Shown piece after piece: positions 10,093 to 62,097 of a DNA stretch of 64,000 nucleotides. Source of the DNA: Furfurilactobacillus milii. GTDB lineage: Bacteria > Bacillota > Bacilli > Lactobacillales > Lactobacillaceae. The DNA lies in the NCBI RefSeq assembly GCF_009864005.1, contig NZ_WEZQ01000019.1:1-64000 (forward strand). Direction: 5' to 3'. Within the stretch, counting starts at the first letter, position 1. Every line of letters begins with the position of its first letter. The position numbers and the translations under genes are program-made. The notes under the pieces were generated by a model that was given only the letters and a program-made list of their open reading frames with translations, was not told the origin of the DNA and did not search any database.

Positions 10093-10134
10093 TTGATTTA
10101 ACCTCAGAGGAGGTTGTGGGCGTGGTGAAAATGC

Positions 10135-10325
10135 CGCTTGCAGTTGCCAACATTGACACGCTCGCCGTGGGACCGGTTCAAGCCCGAAGTTCACGGTCTT
10201 TCAACTCGTCACAGAGCCTCGTGAAATTCCGAGTCTCCGTGACCGTCCGTGTTGTAAATTCGAGAAGTGCATTCGAATTAACAACACTTTCACGGCTCGG
10301 TATCAATGTTGGCGCCCTCCCGCTG
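10135..10325 (+). repeat. Structured intergenic repeat, family 1, copy 1
   Basis: One of four copies. The closing helix is GCCAACATTGA (10146-10156) with TCAATGTTGGC (10303-10313). Inside it, GCCGTG pairs with CACGGC. Three hairpins follow: CCG/CGG, then GTCAC...GTGAC enclosing CTCG/CGAG, then GTGTTGT-AATTCGA pairing with TCGAATT-ACAACAC. Conserved unpaired blocks are GGGACCGGTTCAAGCC and CCGTCCGT. The core length is 168 nt. It lies downstream of the permease pair, before their terminator. Confidence 0.85.
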
Positions 10326-27383: not shown

Positions 27384-27515
27384 CTTAATATTAAAACACT
27401 TTTCTATCTAAATACCAATTAGATGAATTGTCAAGGACTCATGTAATTGACGATATGTCTGAAATTACAACATTAAAATCAATTCCTCAAAATTTGAGTA
27501 GATTGATTTCGTTTC

Positions 27516-27588
27516 GCCGGTCGAGGACATCGTACCATGGGATCGATCTCAGCCCTTAAACCCCCAAGGGTCTTCAACCTCGACCGGC
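27516..27588. other. Compact three-stem inverted-repeat element
   Basis: GCCGGTCGAGG (27516-27526) pairs perfectly with CCTCGACCGGC (27578-27588). Inside, CCCTT/AAGGG and ATCG/CGAT form two small hairpins, giving a 73-nt cloverleaf-like shape. No T run follows on either strand. It is not similar to repeat family 1. I see no second copy in this window. Confidence 0.6.
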
Positions 27589-27671
27589 TTCACTCATGTT
27601 GTACTAGATTTAGCTAAATTTAAAGCTAAAAATAAGAAAATGGGTCGCAATTGAATCTGCTGTTACATGTA

Positions 27672-27860
27672 TGTGAGGGCGTCACCGTTGATACCGAGTC
27701 GTGAAGGTGGTGTTAATTCGAATGATTCTGTTGAATTTACAGCACGGACGGCTGGGAAGACTCGGGGTCTTGCGAGGCTTCCCAACGAGGTGAAAGACTG
27801 TGACTTTCAGGCTTGAACCGGTCCCACGACAAGTGTATCAACGGTGACAACCGGCAGTAA
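27672..27860 (-). repeat. Structured intergenic repeat, family 1, copy 4 (reversed)
   Basis: On the minus strand this has the same order of elements as the other three copies. The closing helix is GTCACCGTTGATAC/GTATCAACGGTGAC (plus 27681-27694 with 27835-27848). The second helix is GTCGTG/CACGAC where other copies have GCCGTG/CACGGC. The first hairpin is CTG/CAG, and the second is TGGGAAG/CTTCCCA where copy 3 has CGCCAAG/CTTGGCG. The 168-nt core is unchanged. Confidence 0.85.
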
Positions 27861-27894
27861 GGGCAGTAAGGTTCAATAGTTTAAAGGTAAAATC

Positions 27895-33256: not shown

Positions 33257-33328
33257 TGCGCTTGGGGGGAATCGAACCCTCATCTCAAGAACCGGAATCT
33301 TACGTGCGATCCATTACACTACAAGCGC
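33257..33328 (-). tRNA. tRNA-Arg (anticodon CCG)
   Basis: On the minus strand the acceptor stem GCGCTTG pairs perfectly with CAAGCGC. The D arm runs GTG...CAC, the anticodon stem TAAGA/TCTTG encloses TTCCGGT (anticodon CCG), and the T arm GAGGG-TTCGATT-CCCCC has one A-C mismatch. Discriminator A. CCA is not encoded. It stands alone with its own terminator. Confidence 0.92.
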
Positions 33329-49948: not shown

Positions 49949-51148
49949 TTGGCTAAATTAACTGTTTCTGATTTAGATTTAACTGGAAAAAAAGTTTTAA
50001 TGCGTGTTGACTTTAATGTGCCGATTAAAAACGGCGTGATTGGTAACGACAACCGAATCGTGGCTGCATTACCTACGATTAACTATGTTCTGGATCATGG
50101 TGGCCGTGCCATCTTATTCAGTCATTTAGGTCGTGTTAAGACTGAAGAGGACAAAAAGGAATTGTCCATGCGTCCTGTTGCAGAACGTTTGAGCAACTTA
50201 TTGGGCAAACCTGTAACGTTTGTTCCAACTACCCGTGGTCCTCAGCTCGAAGACGCCATCAACAACTTGAAAGACGGCGAAGTTCTGTTATTCGAAAACA
50301 CTCGTTTTGAAGATTTGGATGGCAAGAAGGAATCCGGTAACAACCCTGAATTGGGTCAATACTGGGCTTCACTTGGCGATGTTTTCGTTAACGACGCCTT
50401 TGGTACTGCTCACCGTGAACATGCCTCAAACGTTGGTATCGCAACGGCCATGAAAGCAGCCGGCAAGTCAGTTGCTGCTGGTTTCTTAATGGAAAAGGAA
50501 ATCAAGTTCTTAGGTAACGCTGTTGATAACCCTGTTCACCCATTCGTTGCTATCTTGGGTGGTGCTAAGGTTTCTGACAAGATCGGCGTCATCGACAACT
50601 TGTTGAGCAAAGCTGACAAGGTTATCGTTGGTGGTGGGATGGCTTACACCTTCTTCGCTGCCCAAGGCCTTTCAGTTGGTAACTCATTGCTTGAAAAGGA
50701 CAAGATCGACACAGCCAAGGCAATCATTGAAAAGGCTGGCGACAAGCTTGTGTTGCCAATCGACTCTGTTGTTGCTAAGGAATTCAAGAATGACTCACCT
50801 GCAGAAACTGTTGATGGTTCAATTCCTGATGGCTACATGGCTCTTGACATCGGTCCAAAGTCTGTTGAATTATTTGAAAACACTTTGCGTGACGCTAAGA
50901 CTGTTGTTTGGAACGGACCAATGGGTGTCTTCGAAATGCCTAACTTTGCTAAGGGTACCTTAGCTGTTGGTAAGTTCTTGGGTGACTTGGATGCTACGAC
51001 AATTGTTGGTGGTGGTGACTCAACTGCTGCCGTTCAACAATTGGGTGTTGCAGATAAATTGACTCACATCTCCACTGGTGGTGGTGCTTCCCTTGAATAC
51101 CTTGAAGGTAAGACTTTACCTGGGATCGCAGCAATCAGCGACAAGTAA
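49949..51148 (+). CDS. pgk: Phosphoglycerate kinase
   Basis: 399-residue glycolytic kinase. The N-terminal RVDFNVP, the basic substrate patch and the nucleotide motif GGGDSTAAV are all present. The start is TTG 49949 with GGGAGG 8 nt upstream, an uncommon start codon for such a highly expressed gene. It has its own leader and the terminator at 51173-51215. The following 670 bases separate it from tpiA, where most relatives have tpiA directly behind. Confidence 0.98.
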
Positions 51149-51172
51149 TTTAGTTTAATACCGTTCTACATT

Positions 51173-51215
51173 AACGTCCTTCAGTCTGTTTCTTAACGGG
51201 TTGACGGGCGTTTTT
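51173..51215 (+). terminator. Terminator of pgk
   Basis: AACGTCC (51173-51179) pairs with GGGCGTT (one G-U), followed by five T (51211-51215). Confidence 0.8.
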
Positions 51216-51234
51216 GTGTTTTGAGTGGTTAAGG

Positions 51235-51426
51235 ACGCTTGCGGTTGTCAACATTGAAATGCGTCGTGGGACCGGTTCAAGCCTCCTGAAATTCGGAGTC
51301 TTTCACCTCGCCGTGAAGCCTCATGAGAACCTGAGTCTCCACGACCGTCCGTGCTGTAAATTCGGTACAAAACAACCGAATTAACACCACTTGCACGTCT
51401 TGATTTCAATGTTGACGCCCTTCAGC
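51235..51426 (+). repeat. Structured intergenic repeat, family 1, copy 2
   Basis: The closing helix GTCAACATTGAAAT (51247-51260) pairs perfectly with 51403-51416. CGTG/CACG forms the second helix. The first hairpin is CTCC/GGAG, the second CGTG...CACG around CTCA/TGAG, the third AATTCGGT/ACCGAATT with flanking TGT/ACA and GTG/CAC. The core is 170 nt. It sits between pgk and tpiA, and its 3' arm supplies the -35 of the next promoter. Confidence 0.85.
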
Positions 51427-51441
51427 TCATATTCATATAAC
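51412..51441 (+). promoter_or_regulatory. Promoter reading into the structured region before tpiA
   Basis: TTGACG (51412-51417) and TATAAC (51436-51441) are 18 nt apart. The -35 lies inside the 3' arm of repeat copy 2. Confidence 0.55.
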
Positions 51442-51447
51442 CTTGAA

Positions 51448-51776
51448 AAGCCCAAGAAGTGGTCGAGCAGCGAATTTAAATGTGCACTAATATATCTGTT
51501 GAAGGTCCTGACGACTTATATGTGAGTGGAGATGACCGAAGACAGAGTTTCGTGTCGACAATACTTGATGGCGGGTTCTGCCATTTAGTATTGCGGGACG
51601 AGTTCTGAAACGTGGTGTTCGGTTCAGAATCGAGTTTGAAGACCGTGTACTTCAGCGGGCTGAAACGTTCCCCACGAAACGGCGTCTTCGGCCATCGCAA
51701 CGGCATGACGCTGTTTAGCAAGGTAGTAAGTCGATCAGCAAACAGGTGAAACTAGCTTTTTAGGACTGACTTCACT
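51448..51776 (+). ncRNA. Candidate structured RNA between pgk and tpiA
   Basis: No protein-like frame exists on either strand, but hairpins follow one another. CACT-ATATA pairs with TATAT-AGTG around 51485-51528. CAATACT-ATGGC pairs with GCCAT-AGTATTG (51558-51592). CGA-TTCTGAA pairs with TTCAGAA-TCG (51599-51632). GAAGAC...GTCTTC (51638-51689) encloses TTCAGC/GCTGAA. CTGTTT-GC pairs with GC-AAACAG (51711-51746), and GTGAA with TTCAC (51747-51774). A promoter precedes it and no clear terminator ends it. I cannot match it to RNase P, tmRNA, 6S or SRP RNA. Confidence 0.5.
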
Positions 51777-51829
51777 ACAATGCATGTGTAGGAGAAAGAG
51801 TTGTGAGTGTTCGTTTGGCAACGAGTACT

Positions 51830-51858
51830 TTGACAGATTAAAAGAGTAATGCTAAGAC
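51830..51858 (+). promoter_or_regulatory. tpiA promoter
   Basis: A perfect TTGACA (51830-51835) and a weaker TAAGAC (51853-51858) are 17 nt apart, just before the tpiA ribosome site AGAGGGGG. Confidence 0.6.
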
Positions 51859-51882
51859 CCATTATGAAGAGGGGGCTAACCC

Positions 51883-52644
51883 ATGCGGATTCCAATGATT
51901 GTTGGAAATTGGAAGATGAATAAGACTGCGGACTCAGTAGAATCGTTTGTAAATGGTATTAGAGGCAATTTGCCTAATGCGATACAGTTAGAAACAGCTA
52001 TTTGTGCACCTGCCCTGTTTTTAGAACAAATGGTTGATCAGACTCGCGACATGCCTTTAGAAGTTGGTGCGGAAAATTGTTACTTTGAGGACAATGGTCC
52101 GTTTACCGGTGAAACCAGTCCATATGCGTTAAGCAAAGCTGGCGTTGATTTTGTTATTTTAGGACATTCTGAGCGTCGGAAGATTTTCCGTGAAACCGAC
52201 GAGATGATTAATTTAAAAGTTCAAGCCGTTTTTCGGAACCATATGCGACCGATTATCTGTTGTGATGAAACGATGGGGCAGCGAGAATCTAATGATGCTG
52301 TTCACTGGGTTGTTGCTCAGGTAATTGAGGCGTTAAAGGGCGTTGATGAGGAGCAGGCAAGAACTGCGATTATTGCGTATGAGCCAAGCTGGGCGATTGG
52401 CGTTGGTACACCCGCGTCACCTGATCAAATTGAGGAAGGCTGTTATCTGATTCGTCAAACGGTCGCAGACGTTTATGATGATGAAATTGCTGACGAAGTG
52501 CGGGTATTATATGGCGGTTCTGTTAAGCCTGCAAATATAAACACGATCATGCAGAAACAGGATGTCGATGGGGTTTTGGTCGGCAACGCTAGCCTTCAAC
52601 CTGAATCGTTTCTGGAACTTATTAGCAATGATCCTGGAAAATAA
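51883..52644 (+). CDS. tpiA: Triosephosphate isomerase
   Basis: 253-residue glycolytic isomerase. Catalytic residues are Lys11 (GNWKMNK), His95 (ILGHSERR) and Glu167 (AYEPSWAIGVG). The phosphate loop GGSVKPAN is present. ATG 51883 has AGAGGGGG upstream and a private promoter. Codon bias is weaker than in gap, pgk and eno. Confidence 0.97.
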   Translation: MRIPMIVGNWKMNKTADSVESFVNGIRGNLPNAIQLETAICAPALFLEQMVDQTRDMPLEVGAENCYFEDNGPFTGETSPYALSKAGVDFVILGHSERRKIFRETDEMINLKVQAVFRNHMRPIICCDETMGQRESNDAVHWVVAQVIEALKGVDEEQARTAIIAYEPSWAIGVGTPASPDQIEEGCYLIRQTVADVYDDEIADEVRVLYGGSVKPANINTIMQKQDVDGVLVGNASLQPESFLELISNDPGK

Positions 52645-60149: not shown

Positions 60150-60188
60150 GTTTAAGACCAAAATGCTGAACGAAAGGCAGGCGTGAAC

Positions 60189-60659
60189 ATGGCCAAACGA
60201 AAACAAACTGGCAACGACGCGCTGGCAAATAATCGTAAGGCGCGTCATGAATATTCGATTCTCGACACATATGAAGCTGGTATTTCACTGACCGGTACGG
60301 AAATTAAATCCGTTCGGGCGGCCCGAATCACGATCGGTGACGGGTTTGTGTCGATTAAAGATGGGGAAGCTTACCTCATGAATGTCAATATTGCCGAGTT
60401 TACGCAGGGGAATCGTTTCAACCACGATCCGTTGCGTACACGAAAGCTATTGCTACATCAAAAAGAAATTAGCAAGTTACAGTCGGCAGTGTCCCAAAAG
60501 GGGATGACCATTGTGCCATTAAAGGTTTACATCAAGCATGGTTTTGCGAAGGTGCTGATTGGTGTGGCGCAAGGAAAGCATTCTTATGACAAACGTGAGA
60601 CACTGAAAAAACGCGACCAACAACGTGATATCGATCGTGCATTGTCGCGCCGACGATAA
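60189..60659 (+). CDS. smpB: SsrA-binding protein
   Basis: 156-residue tmRNA partner in trans-translation. It has the beta-barrel segment [23 protein letters not shown], the [14 protein letters not shown]-like motif (here [14 protein letters not shown]) and the basic tail RALSRRR. GTG 60183 opens the frame, but ATG 60189 with AAAGGCAGG upstream is normal. It is downstream of rnr. The window holds no tmRNA gene. Confidence 0.97.
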
Positions 60660-60696
60660 TTACTTTACTTTTGTAGTATTTGTACCTATTTTACTG

Positions 60697-60890
60697 TCGC
60701 TTACGGTTGTCAACAGTGATACGCCCGCCGTGGGACCGGTTCAAGCCTCCTAAAATTCGGAGTCTTTCACCTCGCCGCCAAGCCTCGTGAAAAGCCGAGT
60801 CTTGGCGACCGTCCGTAACCTAAATTCGAGCAAACCGCTCGAATTTAGGTTACCTTCACGGCTCGGTATCACTGTTGACGTCCTCCAGCT
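60697..60890 (+). repeat. Structured intergenic repeat, family 1, copy 3
   Basis: The closing helix GTCAACAGTGATAC (60709-60722) pairs perfectly with 60866-60879. GCCGTG/CACGGC is the second helix. The first hairpin is CTCC/GGAG, the second CGCCAAG/CTTGGCG around CTCG/CGAG, the third a 17-bp GTAACCTAAATTCGAGC stem with its perfect complement. The core is 171 nt. It lies between smpB and its terminator. Confidence 0.87.
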
Positions 60891-61029: not shown

Positions 61030-61716
61030 TTACCAACCGCGGTATGCAGCCCAGTGGGCAGCAGCGGCTGACCATGAACCGTAACGTGAAACAGCGTAAG
61101 CAGATGCAACACGTTCTTGGTTAGCAGCGGAGTAGTCACCGTTCAACTTGTCAGCACTCAATTGGTATTTACCAATGTACTGACCGTTACGGGCAGTGTA
61201 GCTACCACCAGATTCACCGGCAGCAATATAAGCCATGGCAGCTTCGTCAGATGATGAAGCTGTTGAAGTTGAGGCAGCCTGTGTAGTTGATGCTTGTGTA
61301 TTTTGCGTAGTGGAGGCCTGTGTTGTTTGTGTAGTTGCTTGAGTCTGTTGTGCAGACGCAGCTTGTGTAGTAGTTGTTTGGGCTACTGGAGCTTGTGTCT
61401 TAGCAACAGTCTGTGTTTGTACAACTGGTGCAGCTTGTTGTAAAGGGGCTGCAGCTTGTGTCGTCGTAGTTGTTGTAGTGTTGGAAGTGCCGTCAGGGAT
61501 AATCAAGTTTTGACCAACGTAGATTAAGTCTCCCTGGTTTTGCAACTGGTTAGCGTTGATGATTGCATCAATGCTTGTGTTGTTGGCATGTGCCAATGCG
61601 GAAACAGTGTCTCCGCTCTTAACAGTAACGTTTGAGTCTGCGTTTGCGGCAACAGTTCCAGCGGCTAATAAAGCACCGGCGCTTAAAGTAGTTAACAAAA
61701 TTTGTTTGATCTTCAT
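61030..61716 (-). CDS. LysM-containing, aggregation-promoting-factor-like surface protein
   Basis: 228 residues. A signal peptide (cut after ANA, about residue 26) is followed by one LysM domain (30-74) that binds peptidoglycan, a Thr/Gln/Ala-rich linker (79-160), and a C-terminal domain with IAAGESGGSYTARNGQYIGKYQLS and SRYGSWSAAAAHW. That domain is typical of Apf proteins, related to lytic transglycosylases, and has the catalytic-like Glu in AAGESGGS. The frame is open to 61842, but ATG 61716 starts with MKIKQILLTT after an AGGAG site. It is secreted and wall-bound. A 110-nt structured leader precedes it. Confidence 0.85.
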   Translation of the reverse strand: MKIKQILLTTLSAGALLAAGTVAANADSNVTVKSGDTVSALAHANNTSIDAIINANQLQNQGDLIYVGQNLIIPDGTSNTTTTTTTQAAAPLQQAAPVVQTQTVAKTQAPVAQTTTTQAASAQQTQATTQTTQASTTQNTQASTTQAASTSTASSSDEAAMAYIAAGESGGSYTARNGQYIGKYQLSADKLNGDYSAANQERVASAYAVSRYGSWSAAAAHWAAYRGW

Positions 61717-61839
61717 GTAGAAATTTTCACTCCTATATTGTGTATGGCGTCGCATCTTAATTGGCGACGCGCTTGGCAACCCCTCACGAGGATTCGTGGC
61801 TGGGGTGTTGTTCTCTTCCAAACAACGATGCCTACTATA
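61717..61839 (-). promoter_or_regulatory. Promoter and structured leader of the LysM/apf-like gene
   Basis: A -10, TATAGT (plus 61834-61839), places the transcript start near 61827. On the minus strand the leader then folds as GTTGTT/AACAAC, CCCC...GGGG enclosing CACG/CGTG, and GCGTCGC/GCGACGC shortly before the ribosome site. The ATCC-and-GGGG layout recalls the c-di-AMP (ydaO) class, but key segments are missing, so I do not assign it. Confidence 0.5.
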
Positions 61840-62097
61840 CATGGTGTAAATAACAACGAAATACCGTAGACATTACAAAATCAGAGTGTTTTGTCACATA
61901 AAGATGCTTTTGAAATATTTTGTAACATGATAATGTTTATAACTCGAAAATTATTGAAGTGTTGCCGCACTGACGGCAATGGGCATGATTACAAACATGT
62001 AACTATCCCTAGAAACGCTGATTTGACGGCATTTATCGCACATGAAAACGCCGTGAAGCATCAAATAATGATACTCGCAGCGCATTTCTTTACTAAT

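Follow-up and report, generated by a model that had tools for sequence, protein, structure and literature searches.

A structured repeat of lactobacilli, four copies of which lie in a 64,000-nt stretch of Furfurilactobacillus milii DNA (the window), is built as a unit of two homologous arms inverted around a spacer. The arms share a conserved fold, are present in high copy number and are distributed over part of the Lactobacillaceae; in Furfurilactobacillus they are oriented with replication, and at fixed sites both arms of the unit are constrained. As an explanation we tentatively prefer, with a confidence that falls just short of even, a non-coding, non-autonomous interspersed element of the Lactobacillaceae that is organised like an oversized REPIN and is now retained. 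An earlier note on the window had called the repeat an unnamed, structured and selected family, either an RNA or an element whose folded nucleic acid is recognised, and this description stands, with no match in Rfam 15. That note had no view of the two-armed, inverted unit, of how many copies there are, of their spread through the Lactobacillaceae, of the replication-linked orientation or of the signature on the complementary strand.

The two-armed unit and its distribution

The four copies proposed in the window are real, lying on the strands first given and within 1-3 nt of the first coordinates. Each of them, however, is one arm of a two-armed unit and not a whole element, and the count of four gives way to 125 arm sites genome-wide. 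The features in the window are listed below.

10133-10324, plus strand: left arm (LA) alone, flanked by an amino acid permease gene on one side and a YibE/F-like gene on the other
27510-27583, minus strand: right-arm remnant (28 bits) of the 27670-27861 copy
27670-27861, minus strand: left arm (LA)
51234-51427, plus strand: left arm (LA) of the sole full unit in the window, which spans 51234-51705
51428-51524, unstranded: AT-rich spacer of the full unit, 98 nt
51525-51705, plus strand: right arm (RA) completing the full unit; its homology is to LA in reverse complement, and model R1 matches it on the minus strand
60696-60890, plus strand: left arm (LA) alone, with smpB (60183-60659) on one side and a LysM-domain gene (61030-61842, minus strand) on the other

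A full unit consists of LA (~190 nt), an AT-rich spacer and the inverted, homologous RA (~182 nt), and is mostly 430-480 bp long, with CGCTT.CGGTT at its start and GCGTAACGG at its finish. The second conserved block was revealed by the flanks of copies. Its homology to the reverse complement of LA is seen in many loci, where RA profiles match LA on the opposite strand, and R1, a covariance model based on the 36 arms of alignment A2, likewise matches RA on the opposite strand, other genera included; in some units the second arm is more LA-like. The spacer measures 58-119 nt in 22 of 23 units and 276 nt in one. A central spacer hairpin was considered as a constant part of the unit and rejected, as 6 of the 23 spacers fold below z -1. 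Among the 125 sites, 62 form pairs less than 320 bp apart, and all 31 pairs share one inverted arrangement.

Many copies are reduced to one arm. RA is found beside 23 of the 44 LA copies examined with their flanks and is absent beside 21; the window copies that the earlier note began at 10135 and 60697 have no right arm. At the 60697 site, which comes after smpB, the relatives G001, G002 and G003 retain RA, so the LA-only state there represents a loss. Arms from doublets are somewhat more alike than singlets (82.0% versus 78.2% identity; 23 and 21 arms; one-sided permutation p 0.026), a weak difference of the kind that would arise if it is the doublet that moves as a unit. The full unit of the window sits between the genes for phosphoglycerate kinase (pgk, 49949-51148) and triosephosphate isomerase (tpi, 51883-52644), which share one reading direction on either side of the interval 51148-51883.

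The earlier note had proposed a covariance-model search of the complete genome and of other lactobacilli. In the own genome of 2.73 Mb, R1 gave 127 matches at E<=0.001, corresponding to the 125 non-overlapping arm sites. Their density is uneven, with many on the 127-kb contig C5 and two on the 358-kb contig C1. Across the family, R1 matches were found in at least 66 of 301 Lactobacillaceae genomes (E<=0.01) and in 11 of 40 genera, a lower bound given that at most eight candidates per genome were scored under stricter filters. Carriers include Furfurilactobacillus rossiae, F. milii, Lactiplantibacillus herbarum, daoliensis, pingfangensis and xiangfangensis, and an uncultured Lactobacillus sp.; the model search found no copy in the congener G004. 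In a survey of the class (398 genomes of 146 genera, few of which need be Lactobacillaceae), the own genome alone matched (E<=1e-4, six candidates scored each).

Outside the chromosomes, one copy occurs on plasmids associated with beer, in Pediococcus damnosus and Loigolactobacillus backii; 5 of the 72,556 records searched for plasmids matched. Here a single LA copy adjoins a MerR-type regulator and a predicted SMR efflux gene in a chromosome-like segment, the ORFs of which are identical or nearly so on plasmids of the two genera (loci L145, L146) and in two further genomes (L151 in G175 and L152 in G099). The segment is apparently a case of recent horizontal spread, with the repeat carried as a passenger. 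Phage records gave 0 matches in 50,697. One IMG/VR contig was set aside for having little beyond an 18-base match, and exact 18-base matches in Arthrobacter, Streptomyces, alphaproteobacterial, Gemmataceae and two other MAGs and in Schleiferilactobacillus look like chance, since the model finds no arm there.

Catalogues were searched as well, the comparison with Rfam being another proposal of the earlier note. None of the 4227 families of Rfam 15 matched the repeat in the window at gathering score, and none matched an arm in five loci at E<=1, where one miRNA hit (0.34) fell outside the arms. The sole Rfam match within the window is a tRNA at 33257-33328 (minus strand). The open-licence literature that was searched held no description of this repeat family.

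Two loci show denser arrangements. In L162 (G274), a stretch of 1.4 kb (positions 2-1400) holds one ORF together with several partial arms, which overlap or adjoin it and occur in both orientations. In L161 (G020), arms at 476-660 and 1501-1690 flank one ORF, and one arm lies between that ORF and the next; we take the arm-flanked ORF to be ruvA-like and its neighbour to be ruvB-like.

Fold, covariation and the working strand

The fold of each arm comprises a 16-pair outer helix, a second helix, a further helix around two hairpins, and one long hairpin; this junction layout is conserved across genera. The covariation that supports the fold is overwhelming. It was examined in an alignment of 120 arms (118 distinct rows) drawn from 69 chosen sources. 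Changes on both sides are seen in 51 of 53 pairs, and the covariation score is 0.605 against 0.182 for shuffled alignments; none of 500 shuffles reached any of five measures. When the structure is slid by 1-3 columns, pairing drops to 33-41%. Fitting the rows to R1 biases the result towards the structure of that model, but the margin is larger than that bias explains, and a separate MAFFT alignment of 44 own arms gave the identical fold. The 60697 copy, folded as DNA, reaches z -9.1, and the right arm at 51524-51705 reaches z -6.2. The compensatory change first reported from four copies is thus real and far above chance, with 93.6% of 5911 cells paired versus 69.0% when shuffled (0 of 500 shuffles as high). 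The blocks described as unpaired need some revision: in the consensus, most of GGGACCGGTTCAAGCC takes part in pairs (GGAC/GTCC, GGT/ACC, AAG/CTT).

The two strands of an arm were compared by wobble pairs and loop composition, with class B RNase P RNA, handled identically, as the reference (found in 30 of 41 genomes). On the outward strand of each arm, which reads away from the spacer, covarying pairs give G-T:A-C ratios of 37:12 for LA, 19:8 for RA and 42:28 for LA of other genera, with 88:9 for RNase P RNA. For all predicted pairs the ratios are 120:46, 76:11 and 101:49, with 414:42 for RNase P RNA. On the strand first described, LA gives the reverse count of 12:37, and the RA counts come from the plus strand. 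Conserved unpaired columns are purine on the outward strand in 24 of 27 cases for LA, 20 of 26 for RA and 12 of 17 for other genera (RNase P RNA, 68 of 85). Taken together, wobble counts and loop composition indicate that the outward strand is probably the working strand of each arm, and hence that the strand on which the earlier note described the repeat probably is not. On the outward strand, the loops appear RNA-like and the wobble preference appears weaker than in proven RNA. A DNA yardstick was sought in the REP stems of E. coli K-12 and discarded: 24 REPs in 300 kb gave 167 Watson-Crick pairs, 0 G-T and 1 A-C, too invariant for a ratio.

These data bear on a second explanation, in which each arm is read outward into a structured non-coding RNA of ~190 nt, a full unit thereby giving two divergent homologous RNAs that spread by duplication or in a SINE-like manner and are kept for the RNA. 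This is possible, if on the doubtful side. Its conserved loops are purine-rich, as in RNase P RNA, and the G-T excess leans to the same strand throughout, but the preference for wobble pairs is much weaker than in RNase P RNA, and the better folding of the G-rich outward strand is mostly an effect of composition. A weak TATA-like stretch lies beside both arms, with no conserved -35 box there, and a simple scan of the full unit gave no promoter-like or terminator-like site. The constraint on arms at fixed sites, described below, would fit an RNA well, while the patchy distribution of the family would not. A single RNA over the whole unit was rejected, as the strand signature falls on opposite strands in the two arms. 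The REPIN-like and RNA readings may also both hold: an element with RNA-acting arms can disperse as well.

Orientation, constraint and mobility

In the own genome, 51 of the 57 LA copies tested, which are spread over nine contigs, are oriented in line with the sign of the GC skew, compared with 171 of 228 genes in the same slices (Fisher p 0.02). This test used LA copies of at least 155 bits and left out six further copies on other contigs; the threshold was set after seeing the list, and other thresholds agree (55 of 62, 58 of 66). In the relative G001, 42 of 44 LA copies among those listed agree with the skew on five contigs, compared with 62 of 91 genes (p 0.0003), although the two counts are not independent because many G001 copies are orthologous to those of the own genome. 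The bias of LA persists where local genes are unbiased, for instance at 80-100 kb of contig C7 of G000 (5 of 14 genes) and on contig C24 of G001 (3 of 9 genes). In Furfurilactobacillus, LA follows the replication strand. No orientation bias was seen in the genus g16, with agreement in 23 of 42 (G200) and 21 of 43 (G233) copies among the matches listed at 80 bits or more. With regard to neighbouring genes, 42 copies comprise 16 co-directed with LA, 7 counter-directed, 13 convergent and 6 divergent cases, in an analysis that excluded ORFs overlapping the element beforehand and so assumed an intergenic position. When neighbour proteins of loci L151-L176 were compared with those of L045 onwards, the two groups common to most loci (15 each) were LysM-domain proteins.

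Comparison of orthologous sites can reveal whether a copy is maintained where it sits. Orthologous Furfurilactobacillus arms were compared in 33 groups with one pair each, using the most divergent pair up to 8% and leaving out identical pairs. Differences were found at 146 of 3892 paired positions versus 143 of 1682 unpaired positions. Double changes numbered 15 against 2.7 expected, and 10 of them led from one Watson-Crick pair to another; with 116 single changes at paired positions, the earlier statement that every helix is kept by paired changes was nevertheless too strong. Full units were compared in 15 groups, leaving out pairs with identical LA or with LA more than 15% different. LA differed at 162 of 2698 positions (6.0%) and RA at 114 of 2705 (4.2%), while the spacer differed at 243 of 1471 (16.5%) and the flanks, which are partly coding, at about 10% (left 197 of 1957, right 203 of 1978). 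The arms therefore change 2.8-3.9 times less than the spacer, a contrast that gapped spacer alignments may inflate and that varies between groups, the spacer differing less than LA in 5 of 15. This slower pace of change indicates that both arms are constrained at their fixed sites, which argues against a dead selfish repeat, where no constraint is predicted.

Two further explanations are touched by these counts. The excess of double changes could also arise without any function if inverted repeats were kept paired by template-switch mutation at replication, one side of a stem being copied onto the other, a mechanism treated in PMC8794818. This we regard as very improbable, as template switching would leave unexplained the conserved unpaired bases with their strand signature, the junction layout conserved across genera and the slower change of arms than spacer. 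Alternatively, the arms could be host chromosomal sites, that is, oriented folded signals in DNA or mRNA for replication, segregation, nucleoid structure or transcript ends, with mobility confined to the past. Orientation with the replication strand, constraint at fixed sites and the housekeeping neighbours in the window (pgk-tpi, smpB) are what such sites might show; presence in only 66 of 301 genomes (a lower bound), the lack of any copy found in the congener G004, the unbiased orientation in g16 and the uneven density over contigs make this quite unlikely.

A mobile element should have a partner enzyme, and one was sought. Y1 transposases (PF01797) are lacking in G000, G001 and G002, with two weak matches in G003 and one clear match in G005. 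Across the 301 genomes PF01797 occurs in 30 of 66 carriers versus 63 of 235 non-carriers, and no arms were found at the 12 Y1 loci examined; a Y1 transposase as the partner is unsupported by presence and absence across genomes. Where arms are widely spaced (L060, L116, L229, L230, L231), the ORFs between them include no mobility gene recognised by eye, and among the copies inspected, which are part of all copies, there was no parent element with a transposase and the same ends. In L229 (G000:C2, 1865-2848), an ORF with an alpha/beta hydrolase match in Pfam ends within a right arm, as if truncated by it. The 61 full units show no consistent target-site duplication (best scanned offset z 3.3 among many). 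Two candidates for insertion polymorphism were rejected: at the G004 site the element is absent and the flanks are too diverged to show a target, and L027 (versus L115 and L117) is more readily explained by a deletion. The close relatives compared thus yielded no case of insertion polymorphism.

For the REPIN-like reading, organisation, dispersal, the decay of singlets, the absence of target duplication and, in one genus, the fork-linked orientation are what a single-strand-transposed element of that kind would leave. Its proposed mechanism would begin with two homologous branched domains of 180-190 nt, LA and RA, inverted around a short AT-rich spacer. Each arm would fold when single-stranded and be recognised by a putative protein encoded elsewhere, which may have copied the unit into single-stranded DNA at replication forks with no target duplication. 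In Furfurilactobacillus such copying appears to have ceased; the copies left, many of them reduced to LA, would be retained because their folded arms now serve the host. In favour of this reading we count that LA tracks the GC skew better than genes do, that the distribution is patchy, with none found in the congener G004 and one copy on beer plasmids, and that the preference for wobble pairs falls far below that of RNase P RNA. Counted against it are the enzyme that was not found, the lack of insertion polymorphism among the relatives compared, the constraint on arms at fixed sites, the unbiased genus g16 and the RNA-like loops.

A bolder formulation can also be considered: a host-maintained bacterial short interspersed element, composed of two divergently read homologous structured domains (RNA or single-stranded DNA), deposited along with replication, maintained by selection on each copy with no dedicated transposase, and present family-wide in food bacteria. 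In this full form it is rather unlikely, although it should not be dismissed.

Comparison with known systems

REPINs and BIMEs, as characterised in parts of PMC3116915, are the closest parallel. They are high-copy dispersed repeats in which two homologous palindromic units are inverted around a spacer, with compensatory changes and with singlets that are more diverged than doublets. REPINs are thought to be moved in trans by RAYT (TnpA-REP). There are differences as well. REP palindromes measure 20-40 nt, whereas the lactobacillar arms are 180-190 nt and multi-branched. REPs carry a tag, GTAG (or GTGG, CGTC), and none is seen on the lactobacillar unit, where the end consensus CGCTT.CGGTT and GCGTAACGG holds no GTAG-type tag and the arms are 182-190 nt. 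In REP and REPIN systems, the RAYT (Y1) gene is flanked by the repeats; the lactobacillar repeat occurs with no RAYT-type gene in 3 of 4 copy-rich Furfurilactobacillus genomes. By analogy, the unit would work like a giant REPIN but would fall outside the REPs.

MITEs, such as BOX, RUP and SPRITE of Streptococcus pneumoniae, are also small, non-coding, dispersed elements with inverted ends, and some of them are described in sections of PMC10969869 as transcribed or structured. The lactobacillar repeat is not a typical MITE: it has no target duplication, no parent insertion sequence was found among the copies inspected, and its ends are large folded domains that differ in sequence. The ends of IS200/IS605 and of other single-strand-transposed elements offer a different likeness, as they are recognised as folded single strands, leave no target duplication and have a replication-tied orientation; these features, and the targeting of the lagging strand by Y1 transposases, are covered in portions of PMC6006769. 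The lactobacillar arms differ in being inverted relative to each other and in lacking a transposase gene, with no PF01797 in G000-G002. With the structured RNAs of Rfam, the repeat shares a conserved junction fold with covariation, but no family matches.

It is an open question by what means scattered structured repeats spread and why they last, and REPs, the best-studied kind, are described mostly from Proteobacteria in the parts of PMC3733652 and PMC6006769 that treat them. The family presented here adds a large and clean example from food bacteria, with a far bigger multi-branched candidate recognition domain, heavy covariation and constraint copy by copy. RNA versus DNA function, and mobility versus host use, can be tested directly in this family. 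The repeat also deserves annotation, as a single genome carries about 125 sites and the glycolytic genes pgk and tpi are separated by one of these. With more than 100 folded, non-coding arm copies that are aligned with replication, many carriers among relatives and no match to a catalogued RNA, it looks like a kind of scattered structured element that has not been recorded before.
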